The translations under genes were made by a program, and so were the position numbers. Below, one piece after another: positions 48,779-54,659 of a DNA stretch of 64,000 nucleotides. The notes below the pieces were generated by a model, which did no database searches, was not told the DNA's origin, and was given only the letters and a program-made list of their open reading frames with translations. Source of the DNA: Natronococcus sp. AD-5 (GTDB lineage: Archaea > Halobacteriota > Halobacteria > Halobacteriales > Natrialbaceae). The stretch lies in the NCBI RefSeq assembly GCF_030734285.1, contig NZ_CP132294.1:248001-312000 (forward strand). Direction: 5' to 3'. Within the stretch, counting starts at the first letter, position 1, and each line of letters begins with the position of its first letter.

Positions 48779-48798
48779 TCGTATCCAATCGCATACGA
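48779..48798. promoter_or_regulatory. 6-8-6 dyad upstream of the sufC TATA box
   Basis: TCGTAT-CCAATCGC-ATACGA is symmetric with six-base arms and lies just before CGTTATCA (48802-48809), the presumed TATA box of the suf operon. A repressor or activator of iron-sulfur assembly binding here is inferred from position and symmetry. Confidence 0.4.
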
Positions 48799-48843: not shown

Positions 48844-49752
48844 ATGGCACGCCTCGAACTGAACAACCTGCACGCAGAAGTGGCGGACGGTGACGAGAAG
48901 ATTCTCGAGGGCGTCGACCTCGAGGTCGAGTCGGGCGAGATTCACGCCCTGATGGGCCCCAACGGCTCCGGGAAGTCGACGACGGCGAAGGTCATCGCCG
49001 GCCACCCGGCCTACGAGGTCACTGAGGGCGAGGTCCTGATCCACCTCGAGGAGGACGAGTTCGGCGAGGACATCGAGATCGGCGAGGACCAGCGCACCTG
49101 GGATCTCCTCGAACTCGAGCCGAACGAGCGCGCGGCGCTCGGCGTCTTCCTCGGCTTCCAGTACCCCGCCGAGATCGAGGGCGTCACGATGACGAACTTC
49201 CTCCGCACGGCGCTCAACGCCAAGATCGAGGAGCGCGAGGAGCTCTTCGAGGACGAGAAAGGCGACGAAGAGGAAGAGGGGGACGAAGGCTTCGAGACCT
49301 CGCCGATGGAAGGTCCCGCGGACGAGGGCGAGGTCGGCGTCGCCGAGTTCCAGGGGATCCTCCAGGAGAAGATGGAGCAGCTGGACATGGACGAGAAGTT
49401 CGCCCAGCGCTACCTCAACGCCGGCTTCTCCGGCGGCGAGAAGAAGCAGAACGAAGTGCTGCAGGCCGCCATCCTCGAGCCGTCGATCGCCGTCCTCGAC
49501 GAGATCGACTCCGGGCTCGACATCGACCGCCTGCAGGACGTCTCGAACGGGATCAACGCGCTGCGCGACCAGCAGGGCACCGGGATCCTCCAGATCACGC
49601 ACTACCAGCGCATCCTCGACTACGTCGAACCCGACTACGTCCACGTCATGCTCGACGGCCAGATCGCCAAGAGCGGCGACGCCTCGCTGGCCGAGGAGCT
49701 CGAGGACAAGGGGTACGACTGGGTCCGCGAAGAGGTCTACGGCACCGCGTAA
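48844..49752 (+). CDS. sufC: Fe-S cluster assembly ATPase SufC
   Basis: This 302-residue ABC-type ATPase drives the SufBCD scaffold. Walker A GPNGSGKST is at 38-46, signature FSGGEKK at 195-201, Walker B AVLDEID near 216-222. Compared with the usual 250 residues it carries a strongly acidic insertion (about 133-165, EDEKGDEEEEGDEG) before the signature. It is the first gene of sufCBD. Confidence 0.95.
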   Translation: MARLELNNLHAEVADGDEKILEGVDLEVESGEIHALMGPNGSGKSTTAKVIAGHPAYEVTEGEVLIHLEEDEFGEDIEIGEDQRTWDLLELEPNERAALGVFLGFQYPAEIEGVTMTNFLRTALNAKIEEREELFEDEKGDEEEEGDEGFETSPMEGPADEGEVGVAEFQGILQEKMEQLDMDEKFAQRYLNAGFSGGEKKQNEVLQAAILEPSIAVLDEIDSGLDIDRLQDVSNGINALRDQQGTGILQITHYQRILDYVEPDYVHVMLDGQIAKSGDASLAEELEDKGYDWVREEVYGTA

Positions 49753-49809
49753 CCTGATCTGGCTAGAACAACGGTAATAACCCTACAGCCGTAACCACAT
49801 ACATAAACA

Positions 49810-51240
49810 ATGAGTTCCGAACAAGATCACCTCAAAGACACTGATACCGAAGCGCGGTTCGAGTTCAAGAAAGAACAGAACGCCGCGGTGAAGTCCGACA
49901 AGGGCCTGACCGAGGAGGTCATCCGCATGATCTCCGAGGACAAGGACGAGCCCGACTGGATGCTCGAGCGCCGCCTGCGCGCGCTCCAGCAGTTCCAGAA
50001 CATGCCGCTGCCGACCGACTGGCCCGGCCAGCCGGACCTGACCGAACTCGACATCGAAGAGATCGTCCCGTACATCCGCCCGGACGTCGACAAGCGCGAA
50101 GGCGTCGACGACTGGACGGAGCTGCCCGACGAGATCAAGGACACGTTCGACAAGCTCGGCATCCCGGAGGCGGAGAAGAACGCGCTCTCCGGCGTCGGCG
50201 CCCAGTACGAGTCCGAGGTCGTCTACCAGAACATGCAGGAGCAGTGGGAGGAGAAGGGCGTCATCTTCATGAACATGGACCGCGCGGTCCAGGAGCACCC
50301 CGAGCTCGTCAAGGAGCACTTCATGACGACCTGCGTCCCGCCGAGCGACAACAAGTTCGCCGCGCTCCACGGCGCCGTCTGGTCCGGCGGCTCGTTCGTC
50401 TACGTCCCCGAGGACGTCACCGTCGAGATGCCCGTCCAGGCGTACTTCCGCATGAACTCGGAGGGGATGGGCCAGTTCGAGCACACGCTCATCATCGCCG
50501 AGGAAGGATCGGAAGTCCACTACATCGAGGGCTGTTCCGCGCCGAAGTACGGCACCCACAACCTCCACTCCGGCGGCGTCGAGGTCTTCGTCGGCGAAGA
50601 CGCGCACGTTCAGTACTCGACCGTGCAGAACTGGTCGAAGAACACGTTCAACCTCAACACCAAGCGCGCCATCGTCGAGGAGAACGGGACGATGGAGTGG
50701 GTCTCCGGCAGCATGGGCTCGAAAGCGACCATGCTCTACCCGTGCTCGATCCTCAAGGGTCGCGGCGCGACGGACACCCACATCACCATCGCGTTCGCCG
50801 GCGAGGGCCAGGACATCGACACCGGCGCGAAGGTGTACCACAACGCGCCGAACACGAAGTCGACCATCGAGTCCAAGTCCATCTCCAAGGACGGCGGCCG
50901 CACCAACTACCGCGGCCTCGTTCACATCGCGGACGGCGCCGAGAACTCGTCCACTGCCGTGGAGTGCGACGCGCTGATGTTCGACAACGAGTCGACGTCG
51001 GACACCATGCCGTACATGGAGATCGAGGAGTCGAAGGTCGACGTCGCCCACGAGGCGACCGTCGGAAAGATCGGCGACGAGGACATCTTCTACCTCCAGA
51101 GCCGCGGTCTGGACGACGACGACGCCAAGAAGATGATCGTCGCCGGCTTCATCGAGCCGATCACGGAGGAACTGCCGATCGAGTACGCGGTCGAACTCAA
51201 CCGCCTCATCGAACTCGAGATGGAGGGTAGTCTCGGATAA
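49810..51240 (+). CDS. sufB: Fe-S cluster assembly scaffold SufB
   Basis: This 476-residue beta-helix protein forms, with SufD and SufC, the scaffold on which clusters are built. It starts with the typical helix (VIRMISEDKDEPDWMLERRL), contains HYIEGCSAPKYGTHNLHSGG and ends with KMIVAGFIEPITEELPIEYA. GGTAATAAC (49773-49781), 29-37 nt before the ATG, may be a second promoter inside the operon. SufD follows after one base. Confidence 0.95.
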   Translation: MSSEQDHLKDTDTEARFEFKKEQNAAVKSDKGLTEEVIRMISEDKDEPDWMLERRLRALQQFQNMPLPTDWPGQPDLTELDIEEIVPYIRPDVDKREGVDDWTELPDEIKDTFDKLGIPEAEKNALSGVGAQYESEVVYQNMQEQWEEKGVIFMNMDRAVQEHPELVKEHFMTTCVPPSDNKFAALHGAVWSGGSFVYVPEDVTVEMPVQAYFRMNSEGMGQFEHTLIIAEEGSEVHYIEGCSAPKYGTHNLHSGGVEVFVGEDAHVQYSTVQNWSKNTFNLNTKRAIVEENGTMEWVSGSMGSKATMLYPCSILKGRGATDTHITIAFAGEGQDIDTGAKVYHNAPNTKSTIESKSISKDGGRTNYRGLVHIADGAENSSTAVECDALMFDNESTSDTMPYMEIEESKVDVAHEATVGKIGDEDIFYLQSRGLDDDDAKKMIVAGFIEPITEELPIEYAVELNRLIELEMEGSLG

Positions 51241-51241
51241 T

Positions 51242-52462
51242 ATGAGCGCAGGAACACAGGTACACGCCAATCTGACGGAAGAACAGGTCCGCGAAATCAG
51301 CGGGAACCTCGACGAGCCAGAGTGGCTCCTCGAGACGCGTCTGGAAGCGCTCGAGGCGCTCGACGAACTCGACATGCCGGACGTCATTCGGACGCCGGGT
51401 CGCAACTGGACGAACCTCTACGAGCTCGACTTCGAGTCGCTCGTCGACCCGCTGAACGCCGCCGAGAACAAGGATCAGGTCGGTCCCGCGGACGCCGAGG
51501 TCCTGTCGTGGGCCGACGCGGTCCAGGAGCACGAGGAGCTCCTGAAGGAGCACTTCGGCAGCATCGTCAACCCGCAGGAGAACTACCTGACGGCCCTCTC
51601 CACGGCGCTGTTCAGCACCGGGACGGTCGTCTACGTCCCCGAGGGCGTCGACGCCGAGGACGTCACCATCCGGACCGAGCAGAACTCCCGCTCGCTGTTC
51701 AACTACACGCTCGTCGTCACCGAGGAGTCGTCCTCGGTCACGATCCTCGAGCGCCAGTCGACCGGCGAGGAGCAAGAGGAGCAGTACTACAGCGGCATCG
51801 TCGAGGTCGTCGCCGGCGAGAACAGCAACGTCCAGTACGGCAGCCTCCAGAACCTCTCGGAGGAGGCCTACAACTTCACCACCAAGCGCGGCGACGCCGG
51901 CACGTACGCCACGATCGACTGGATCGAGGTCAATCTCGGCACGCAGCTGACCAAGGCGGGCGTCTCGACGGAACTCAACGGCGACGGCTCCGAGACGCAG
52001 ATCGTCGGCGCGTTCTACGGCCACAACGACCAGCACTTCGACCTCGACGCGAAGGTCTGGCACCGCGCCGAGCACACGACCGCCGACCTCGTCACCCGCG
52101 GCGTCACCGACGACGTCGCCCGCTCGGTCTACGAGGGCGTCCAGGACGTCGGCAAGGAGGCCTGGGACACCAGCTCCTACCAGCGCGAGAACACGCTGAT
52201 GTTAAGCGACGAGTCCGAGGCCGACGCCTCGCCGAAGCTGATCATCAACAACCACGACACCGAGGCCAGCCACTCGGCGACGGTCGGCCAGATCGACCAG
52301 GAGGACCTGCTGTACATGACCTCCCGCGGTATCGATCCCCGCGCCGCACGTAACATGCTCGTCGAGGGCTTCTTCGTGCCCGTGCTCGAGGAGATCGCGG
52401 TCGACGAACTCCGCGAGGACCTCGAGGATCTGGTTGCGGCCCGACTCCGACAGCGCGACTGA
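51242..52462 (+). CDS. sufD: Fe-S cluster assembly protein SufD
   Basis: This 406-residue SufB paralogue has a helical N-terminus (LTEEQVREISGNLDEPEWLL), a beta-helix core with HNDQHFDLDAKVWHRAEHTT, and a C-terminal MTSRGIDPRAARNMLVEGFF. It is 1 nt after SufB and surely co-translated. Confidence 0.94.
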   Translation: MSAGTQVHANLTEEQVREISGNLDEPEWLLETRLEALEALDELDMPDVIRTPGRNWTNLYELDFESLVDPLNAAENKDQVGPADAEVLSWADAVQEHEELLKEHFGSIVNPQENYLTALSTALFSTGTVVYVPEGVDAEDVTIRTEQNSRSLFNYTLVVTEESSSVTILERQSTGEEQEEQYYSGIVEVVAGENSNVQYGSLQNLSEEAYNFTTKRGDAGTYATIDWIEVNLGTQLTKAGVSTELNGDGSETQIVGAFYGHNDQHFDLDAKVWHRAEHTTADLVTRGVTDDVARSVYEGVQDVGKEAWDTSSYQRENTLMLSDESEADASPKLIINNHDTEASHSATVGQIDQEDLLYMTSRGIDPRAARNMLVEGFFVPVLEEIAVDELREDLEDLVAARLRQRD

Positions 52463-52599: not shown

Positions 52600-53607
52600 A
52601 TGCGGGAACTCCCCGTCGACCTGGACGAAGACACGCTCGAGGCCCTCGAGACCGAGCGACGGCTGATCGGCTTCGAGAGCCGGGCCGCGTACGTTCGATG
52701 GATCGTCGATCAGCGCGGATCGATCGGCGACGCGTCCGGCGAGGACGATCGAGTGCTCGAGGCGTACCGACGGCGGATCGAAGAACTCGAGCGCCGGCTC
52801 GAGGCTGCGACCGATCCCGAGGTGTCGGGGACGACGGCGGAGCCGGCAGGCGCGGACGCAGCGGGCGGTTCAGCGGACGAGCGGCGCGGCGACGACTCGG
52901 AATCGGAGCGCGGTACGGACGGGACGTGGCGGCGCTGGGAGCAGGATCCGACGATCGAGGTCCGCGGTCGACCACGGCGGACCGTTCGTCGAGCCGCGGA
53001 GGGCGAACAGCCCGCGGCCGCGAGCGTCGTGGAGTGCGGCCGACCCGATCGAGTCGAATCCGATACCCAGCGGGACCGGGACGGGGACCGAGAGAATGAA
53101 CCCCGACCGACGATCGAGGCCGGTTCGGCGACCCTCACGCCGGAGCGGGTCGTGCGTCTCTCCGAGGATCCCGTCTCGGCCGACGCGGACGTCCTCGAGT
53201 CCGTCGAGGTCGAGCGCCTCGACGAACTCTCCAGGCGGGCGGTCGCGAAGACCCGCGAGCGATTGGACCGGGACGTCGAAACGGGCCTCGAGTATCGGTC
53301 GACGACGCCGCTCACGGGCGAGGACGTTCGCCCTGGCGCGGACCTCGTCGACCTCGAGACGCTGTCCGTGCCCGGCCGCTCGGAGGAGCAGCGTGCGAAG
53401 CGGCGAGCGGTCGCCGGGCGAGCGATCGCCTTCCTCCGCGACGAGGGCCGTGCGCGGAAGGCCGACTTCGTCGAACGGTTTTACGAGACGCACCCGGCCG
53501 GCTACGCGACCCCCGAGAGCTGGTGGTCGTTTCTCAAGCGCGTCTTCAGACAGGTCGAGGCGGTCGACGGCGGTGACGGCGCTCGCGTCTGGAAATACGC
53601 CGGCTGA
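52600..53607 (+). CDS. Ribbon-helix-helix plus winged-helix-like haloarchaeal protein
   Basis: This 335-residue protein starts with a ribbon-helix-helix-like unit (ELPVDLDEDTLEALETERRL, then GFESRAAYVRWIVDQRG) and a short coiled coil (RIEELERRLEAA). The middle 150 residues are acidic and disordered-looking. The C-terminal domain (IAFLRDEGRARKADFVERFY, then PESWWSFLKRVFRQVEAVDG) resembles a winged helix. DNA binding is likely at both ends. CTTTTTGTACC at about 52568 gives a leaderless start. Confidence 0.75.
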   Translation: MRELPVDLDEDTLEALETERRLIGFESRAAYVRWIVDQRGSIGDASGEDDRVLEAYRRRIEELERRLEAATDPEVSGTTAEPAGADAAGGSADERRGDDSESERGTDGTWRRWEQDPTIEVRGRPRRTVRRAAEGEQPAAASVVECGRPDRVESDTQRDRDGDRENEPRPTIEAGSATLTPERVVRLSEDPVSADADVLESVEVERLDELSRRAVAKTRERLDRDVETGLEYRSTTPLTGEDVRPGADLVDLETLSVPGRSEEQRAKRRAVAGRAIAFLRDEGRARKADFVERFYETHPAGYATPESWWSFLKRVFRQVEAVDGGDGARVWKYAG

Positions 53608-53665: not shown

Positions 53666-54160
53666 ATGAGTCTGGGACAGCGCGTCTCGAGCGACCACCA
53701 GCTCGCCCGGCTCCTCCAGATCGGAGTCGTCCTGGAGGAAGTCGTCGAGTCACGCGCCGCCCACCACCTCGAGTCGCTGCCCGCCGACGAACGCGAGGCC
53801 ATCGACGACGAGGTGCGGGAGTTGCTCGCCGAGGCCGCCGACGAGTCGGCCGGCCACCGCGAGCGACTCGAGGCGCTGGTCGACGAACTCGAGGCCGAGA
53901 CGGTCGCGTACGAAGAGATCAACGCGCTGGTCGACGCGCGGTACGGTCCGCCGGAGGACACGGACGGCGTCCTCTACGATCAGCTCTGTAACGAGGAAAC
54001 CGCCTACAAGTTCTACGACGACCTGATCGAGGCGGTCGAGGCGTCGGACGCCTCGTTCGCCGTCGATCGCGACCGACTGCTCGAGACGCTGTACGACATT
54101 CGGGAGGAGGAACGCGAGGGCGTCGAAGAAGTGACCGAGATCATGGAGCGCAGAGCATGA
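53666..54160 (+). CDS. Ferritin-like / rubrerythrin-type protein
   Basis: This 164-residue protein is almost all helix with paired Glu/His patterns: VVLEEVVESRAAHHLESL, ADESAGHRERL and NEETAYKFYDDLIEAVE. This is the ferritin-like diiron four-helix fold. It could store iron or reduce peroxide. AGTTAAGT near 53635 gives a leaderless start. The DtxR-family regulator starts 67 nt downstream. Confidence 0.78.
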   Translation: MSLGQRVSSDHQLARLLQIGVVLEEVVESRAAHHLESLPADEREAIDDEVRELLAEAADESAGHRERLEALVDELEAETVAYEEINALVDARYGPPEDTDGVLYDQLCNEETAYKFYDDLIEAVEASDASFAVDRDRLLETLYDIREEEREGVEEVTEIMERRA

Positions 54161-54227: not shown

Positions 54228-54659
54228 ATGAACACCGCAGATCAGTATCTCAAAGCAATCTACCTCGCACAACGTATCGACGACGGCCCGGCCTCGACCG
54301 GAACGCTCGCCGACCTCCTCGAGGTCAGCCCGGCGAGCGTCAACGAGATGATCGGGAAACTCGAGGGGCGCAACCTCGTCGAGCACGAGAAGTACAAGGG
54401 CGCCAGCCTGACCGACGAGGGACTCGAGCGCGCACACGACGCCCTGCAGACGTACTGCATCATCGAGCGGTTCCTCACGAACGTCCTCGAGGTCGAGGAG
54501 TTCCGCGAGGAGGCCCGCGCGCTCGAGAGCGTCATCGACGACACGGTCGCGGAGCGACTCGACACGATCATCGACCGGCCCGACGAGTGCCCGGACTGTT
54601 TCGACCCCGAACTGGACTGCTGCGAGCGGCTGGAACTCGTCGACAGCCGCGCGGACTGA
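54228..54659 (+). CDS. sirR: DtxR-family regulator with degenerate metal sites and C-terminal Cys cluster
   Basis: This 143-residue protein has the DtxR winged helix (NTADQYLKAIYLAQRIDDGP, recognition SPASVNEMIGKLEGRNLVEH) and dimerisation helices. By eye, positions corresponding to the classical ligands H79, H98, C102 and H106 are Tyr, Arg, Arg and Ser. The Glu ligands remain. A C-terminal CPDCFDPELDCC (C121, C124, C131, C132) could bind zinc, iron or an Fe-S cluster. It lies next to the ferritin-like gene and near suf. Confidence 0.82.
   Translation: MNTADQYLKAIYLAQRIDDGPASTGTLADLLEVSPASVNEMIGKLEGRNLVEHEKYKGASLTDEGLERAHDALQTYCIIERFLTNVLEVEEFREEARALESVIDDTVAERLDTIIDRPDECPDCFDPELDCCERLELVDSRAD

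Follow-up and report, generated by a model that had tools for sequence, protein, structure and literature searches.

We analysed a window of 64,000 nucleotides from the haloarchaeon Natronococcus sp. AD-5 (contig NZ_CP132294.1, positions 248,001 to 312,000), in which a gene at window positions 54228..54659 encodes a 143-residue DtxR-family regulator. Its open reading frame (ORF), Pfam domains, predicted fold, gene order and a published primer identify it as an orthologue of troR (HVO_0863 type). The feature described here, a loss of classical metal ligands alongside four invariant cysteines, is a real and sharply conserved trait of a known, important regulator. Coordinates below are window positions, and all genes and residues lie on the + strand.

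The protein is a DtxR/MntR-type regulator by both domain content and fold, bearing out the family assignment made in a sequence-only reading of the window. It scores 59.4 bits against PF01325 (Fe_dep_repress, the N-terminal winged helix-turn-helix (HTH); cut-off 26) and 47.6 bits against PF02742 (Fe_dep_repr_C, the dimerisation domain; cut-off 27), and its closest solved relatives by sequence are DtxR/MntR metal-dependent regulators. An AlphaFold2 (AF2) model reached a mean predicted local distance difference test score (pLDDT) of 93.2 and a predicted template modelling score of 0.87; among solved structures it best matches DR2539, the Mn regulator of Deinococcus (8pw0; Z 15.8, 2.2 Å, 123 residues). 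The model drew on an alignment of 103 rows (A1), comprising the window protein, 59 derived rows below 90% identity, seven divergent haloarchaeal copies described below, 27 of the 29 non-haloarchaeal rows retrieved, and 9 of the 11 from paralogues. At only 143 residues, the regulator has no space for an FeoA or SH3 domain.

The metal sites that define the family have been dismantled. We scored conservation over 121 distinct orthologue sequences drawn from 140 strong loci, setting aside contig-end fragments, split copies (L112, L119, L123) and paralogues. The primary DtxR/IdeR site (Met10, Cys102, Glu105, His106) reads Q6, R97, E100 and S101 in the window protein, and the ancillary site (His79, Glu83, His98) reads Y76, E80 and R93, with Glu alone retained; neither is a classical site. 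At the Met10 position, Q6 (54243..54245) is Gln in 121/121 orthologues and Met in the seven divergent copies. Y76, where His79 is lost, adjoins C77, an invariant candidate for a fourth thiolate ligand (54453..54458); both residues are fixed in 121/121, and the divergent copies carry His-Cys in 7/7. E80 (54465..54467), equivalent to DtxR Glu83 and ScaR Glu80, is kept as Glu in 120/121. The His98 and Cys102 positions are now basic (R93 and R97, 54504..54518), with Arg at 93 in 113/121, Arg or Lys at 97 in 107/121 and Arg at both in 92/121. E100, the Glu105 position, is likewise kept (120/121), and at the neighbouring His106 position S101 is replaced only by Ala, Pro, Gly or Thr (54525..54530). 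Across the 121 orthologues, His never occurs at 93 or 101 and Cys never at 97, and the sole invariant His is H53 in the DNA-binding domain.

This assignment of lost ligands does not depend on a single alignment. The sequence-only reading had placed Tyr, Arg, Arg and Ser at the His79, His98, Cys102 and His106 positions, and it was right: ScaR and other relatives align through the region, and the same register is confirmed via a divergent homologue (L114) that keeps all ligands and is itself in register with IdeR. With IdeR, ScaR and the divergent copies all placing the ligands in register, an alignment shift behind the apparent losses was rejected. The proposed loss of the usual iron and manganese sites is therefore supported, and it is complete in the 121 orthologues except for the two Glu.

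In place of the classical ligands, the orthologues share four cysteines. C77, C121, C124 and C132 are invariant in 121/121 orthologues and in 7/7 divergent copies, giving the motif C77 ... C-P-x-C-x7-C, with the spacing C124-x7-C132 constant in 128/128 sequences; four invariant Cys with fixed tail spacing are the pattern of a four-Cys metal site. The orthologue fragments that were set aside likewise carry the Cys. The C-terminal part of the set, C121-P-D-C124-F-x6-C132 (54588..54623), lies in a tail (residues 118–143) where only C121, P122, C124, F125 and C132 are invariant (121/121). Because the tail is otherwise variable, the conservation of these Cys exceeds chance, and strong selection on a putative thiolate set is supported. 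The earlier proposal had named C121, C124, C131 and C132 as metal or Fe-S ligand candidates. Three of these are invariant, but C131 is rejected as a ligand, being Cys in just 44/121 orthologues and otherwise Ala, Val, His, Tyr, Met or others, and C77 had been missed. In the AF2 model, C77 sits in the long dimerisation-domain helix (63–86) beside the His79 position, and the tail forms short strands at 125–126 and 131–132 (block pLDDT 92 for 121–130). C121 aligns with the known metal ligand Cys123 of ScaR, and the Cys set thus builds upon a metal site already described in the family.

The regulator is the orthologue of TroR. The literature passages covered here give Idr, SirR and TroR of Haloferax volcanii as HVO_0538, HVO_0819 and HVO_0863, report TroR (HVO_0863) as the primary iron regulator of that species, and list a primer pair up- and downstream of HVO_0863 with an amplicon of 1,767 bp. 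The forward primer matches exactly in two Haloferax loci (L090, L098), 559 bp before the orthologue, and with one mismatch in two more (L094, L105); the four Haloferax copies show 74–76% identity. This match, together with HVO_0863 being a DtxR protein, establishes the window gene as a TroR orthologue, and its position beside suf and the ferritin-fold gene, along with close identity, places it in the same orthologue group. The Cys set is not described in the passages covered of PMC11349517, PMC11218638, PMC6801745, PMC11834397, PMC10128011, PMC8516115, PMC9240420, PMC7407949, PMC4805248, PMC9253540, PMC6978704 and PMC5605881, and the literature passages do not discuss the cofactor or ligand swap of HVO_0863; this coverage excludes the main TroR paper (10.1093/nar/gkad997), and we do not present the ligand swap as unpublished.

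The gene neighbourhood ties the regulator to iron–sulphur (Fe-S) cluster assembly and to a ferritin-like protein. Upstream lie sufC-sufB-sufD (48844..52462; SUFBD_core at 1.1e-84 for sufB and 2.7e-71 for sufD, ABC_tran for sufC), a poorly conserved 335-residue ORF matched in part of the relatives (52600..53607), and a gene for a 164-residue ferritin-fold protein of Dps/bacterioferritin-like type (53666..54160). Relatives as far as Haloferax retain the arrangement sufC-sufB-sufD-(variable ORF)-ferritin-fold gene-regulator. We counted adjacency in 80 loci, 79 with 700 bp and 74 with 3.9 kb of upstream flank: the ferritin-fold gene stands immediately before the regulator on the same strand in 79/79, and sufB or sufD occurs within about 4 kb upstream in 59/74. 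The link to suf and a ferritin-like gene, first noted from this one locus, is thus conserved. Sequence matches of the ferritin-fold protein to PDB and Pfam are weak, and fold comparison settled its identity: its AF2 model (pLDDT 92.8) matches Dps and bacterioferritin structures, PA4880 best (Z 16.1), and all 50 structure rows among the matches listed are, by title, members of the ferritin superfamily. E25, E28 and H64 are invariant in an alignment of 66 of these proteins. A TTAAGT-type promoter-like stretch, which by eye recurs ahead of the ferritin-fold gene in the majority of 36 species, looks like a core promoter and not an operator. No tRNA genes were found in the window.

A palindrome upstream of sufC is probably the operator of another suf regulator. 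The sequence-only reading had suggested a regulator site near 48779, and a real 18-bp inverted repeat of CGTATCCAATTGGATACG type does lie at 48780–48797, the single exact site of this type in its own genome. It recurs in six other species, giving 7/12 of those compared, all closer relatives, and is absent in the other five; in some relatives it is perfect, and others show small departures from symmetry. The recognition-helix residues S34–S37, E40, M41 and G43–L45 are invariant in the 121 orthologues, and a site restricted to closer relatives therefore more likely belongs to a different protein. We did not assign it to TroR.

TroR orthologues are nearly universal in Halobacteria. A search across the class gave matches in 390/391 genomes, and by our reading of the match rows the orthologue is present at full strength in 379/391, with a best E-value under 1e-50. 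Of the 12 other genomes, six have a divergent copy of about 50% identity (five distinct sequences), two have fragments or a split gene, three have other DtxR paralogues only and one has nothing. One genome carries the orthologue as two overlapping pieces in different frames (L119 and L123), through a frameshift, a pseudogene or an assembly error.

Divergent copies retain both kinds of site. Seven distinct sequences (L113, L114, L116–L118, L169, L170), 44–51% identical to the window protein, all keep the full classical set of M, H, E, H, C, E and H together with the four Cys at equal tail spacing. The ferritin-fold gene adjoins four of the seven, marking these as true orthologues, and is lacking at three. 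Two of the seven, L169 and L170, are further to the six genomes above: they share two genomes with ordinary ligand-less copies (L150, L152), have no ferritin-fold neighbour and may be acquired second copies.

The order of events can be sketched from a tree from which the ligand columns were omitted. A single clade unites the 60 ligand-less rows, with support of 100 in the Shimodaira–Hasegawa-like approximate likelihood ratio test and a branch length of 0.8, and this clade joins the seven divergent copies at support 84; the tree was made by a quick method on 112 columns, and many of its forks are weak. Because the divergent copies hold both sites and the tree places them next to the ligand-less clade, the sequences suggest that the Cys site came first and that a single, later event removed the classical site. 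In non-haloarchaeal relatives the classical ligands are mostly intact; 22/27 of these relatives have C121, 0/27 have C77, and most are without C124. On these sequences, the simplest history would have a normal iron-type DtxR acquire C77 and C124 and only afterwards, and once, lose its classical ligands.

Comparable changes may have arisen elsewhere in the family. Outside Halobacteria, L220 and L221 no longer have the ligand at the His79 position or most of the classical set, and they carry their own CxxC...CC tail; because the tree places them among other non-haloarchaeal sequences, their ligand swap looks parallel to that of TroR, not orthologous. Among DtxR-like paralogues within Halobacteria, L126, L135 and L136 lack most classical ligands but have one Cys close to where C77 lies and several more in the tail, perhaps representing another thiolate type. 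L120 and L124 are without most classical ligands and without the four-Cys tail.

We propose that TroR is no longer controlled through Fe(II) sites but through a thiolate site, in all likelihood an Fe-S or Fe(Cys)4 centre, a reading of the conservation pattern that we consider evenly balanced between right and wrong. The gain of Cys at positions 77 and 124 would have made the family's ancillary metal site a pocket lined by thiolates only, and the C-terminal knuckle would pack against the long helix of the dimerisation domain. The four Cys would then form one site holding an Fe-S cluster or Fe, whose occupancy would set DNA binding. Arg at the His98 and Cys102 positions would replace the metal charge beside the retained Glu80 and Glu100, so that the DNA-binding form would no longer need Fe(II). 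Occupancy of the thiolate site would report iron status, altering docking of the tail and thereby changing dimer or DNA affinity. TroR, which reportedly holds iron uptake down and promotes storage when iron is sufficient, could in this way restrain uptake and favour storage as described. The earlier suggestion that the protein may sense Fe-S status and not free metal is reasonable, though tentative. The fuller proposal, that evolution converted TroR, a DtxR repressor, from sensing Fe(II) to sensing Fe-S clusters (or Fe(Cys)4), with dual-site intermediates still alive today, is likewise tentative, and we rate it somewhat short of an even chance.

Several observations weigh against the reading preferred here. 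In 7/7 divergent copies the Cys set is accompanied by a full set of classical ligands, and it may thus have begun as a structural site, not necessarily as an iron sensor. Suf genes were not found in the fetched stretches of the divergent loci, and the conserved promoter-like stretch ahead of the ferritin-fold gene points to transcription apart from suf. The reverse primer of HVO_0863 was not found in the Haloferax loci, where its best match has 5 mismatches. By sequence models, the regulator appears to share no homology with known Fe-S regulators beyond the common winged helix: it scores 12.5 bits against the SufR model TIGR02702 (cut-off 178.8) and 15.9 bits against the Rrf2/IscR model PF02082 (gathering score 30). 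These scores lend no support to SufR/Rrf2 homology; weak matches in some family members reflect the shared HTH. Finally, four Cys do not by themselves distinguish an Fe-S cluster from Zn, and they would also be compatible with a structural Zn site, an Fe(Cys)4 centre or a redox switch.

In the main rival reading, the four Cys hold a structural zinc that locks the C-terminal tail in place, and TroR itself senses little. Its iron response would then depend on partners such as other DtxR proteins, on how much TroR is present, or on Fe held weakly by the two retained Glu. Zinc knuckles resemble a CPxC-x7-C hairpin, and this segment is a small hairpin in the AF2 model. A Cys set standing beside a complete iron site, as in the divergent copies, is what a structural site would be expected to show, and other DtxR paralogues occur in most haloarchaeal genomes. 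If zinc were purely structural, however, no iron site would be evident in the main iron regulator; the short tail varies at most positions other than the Cys, and relatives outside Halobacteria manage without C77 in 27/27 cases and mostly without C124. We regard this explanation as unlikely, though the strongest of the alternatives.

A redox switch is less probable still. The Cys set would in that case act through Zn-thiolate or disulfide chemistry, coupling iron control to oxidative stress, as the Dps-like ferritin-fold neighbour in 79/79 loci and the invariance of the Cys within a variable tail might suggest. Yet the fixed C-x2-C-x7-C arrangement (128/128), with a separate Cys on the helix, resembles a metal site and not a single disulfide, and the literature passages give TroR an iron role; we think such a switch improbable. 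A metal-blind, constitutive regulator, in which Arg replaces the metals and the Cys merely stabilise the fold, would fit the 92/121 orthologues in which the His98 and Cys102 positions are both Arg, and we consider it very improbable. Classical sensing at shifted positions, with the losses as alignment artefacts, draws on the retention of E80 and E100 but is scarcely credible given the common register of the divergent copies, IdeR and ScaR and the location of the sole invariant His, H53, in the DNA-binding domain.

TroR thus presents a near-universal regulator of Halobacteria, reported as a primary iron regulator, in which the iron-sensing residues of its family are gone except for two Glu. The cofactor of the main haloarchaeal iron regulator becomes a sharp question with a named ligand set, C77, C121, C124 and C132, and the dual-site divergent copies offer a natural before-and-after series for ligand change in a metal sensor. 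Were the fuller proposal of a converted sensor true, Fe-S supply and not free Fe(II) would set the iron network of nearly all haloarchaea.

Comparison with known systems places the regulator within the DtxR family while setting its ligands apart. TroR HVO_0863 and the window gene occupy the same place after sufC-sufB-sufD and the ferritin-fold gene, as seen in other Haloferax species, and the literature passages give no difference between the two. The regulator shares with the Fe(II)-dependent IdeR/DtxR proteins a common fold, both Pfam domains and the residues equivalent to Glu83 and Glu105; unlike them, it has lost Met10, His79, His98, Cys102 and His106, has no SH3/FeoA domain and has added four Cys. 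SufR and IscR are winged-helix regulators encoded near Fe-S assembly genes and carry conserved Cys. Their likeness to TroR is a proposed analogy only, the families being different with models below cut-off, and if the proposal holds TroR would be the haloarchaeal counterpart of IscR/SufR. Among the streptococcal Mn(II)-dependent regulators, the secondary metal site of ScaR is given in the passages covered as Glu80-Cys123-His125-Asp160 (PMC4805248), and site 1 of MtsR and SloR as His76-Glu80-Cys123-His125 (PMC9253540). Ligands Glu80 and Cys123 of ScaR, SloR and MtsR align with E80 and C121 of the regulator, which differs in having Y76 for His76, D123 for His125, the extra Cys C77, C124 and C132, and no FeoA domain. 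The divergent haloarchaeal copies share the four Cys and their tail spacing with the regulator and, unlike it, keep the complete classical set as well.
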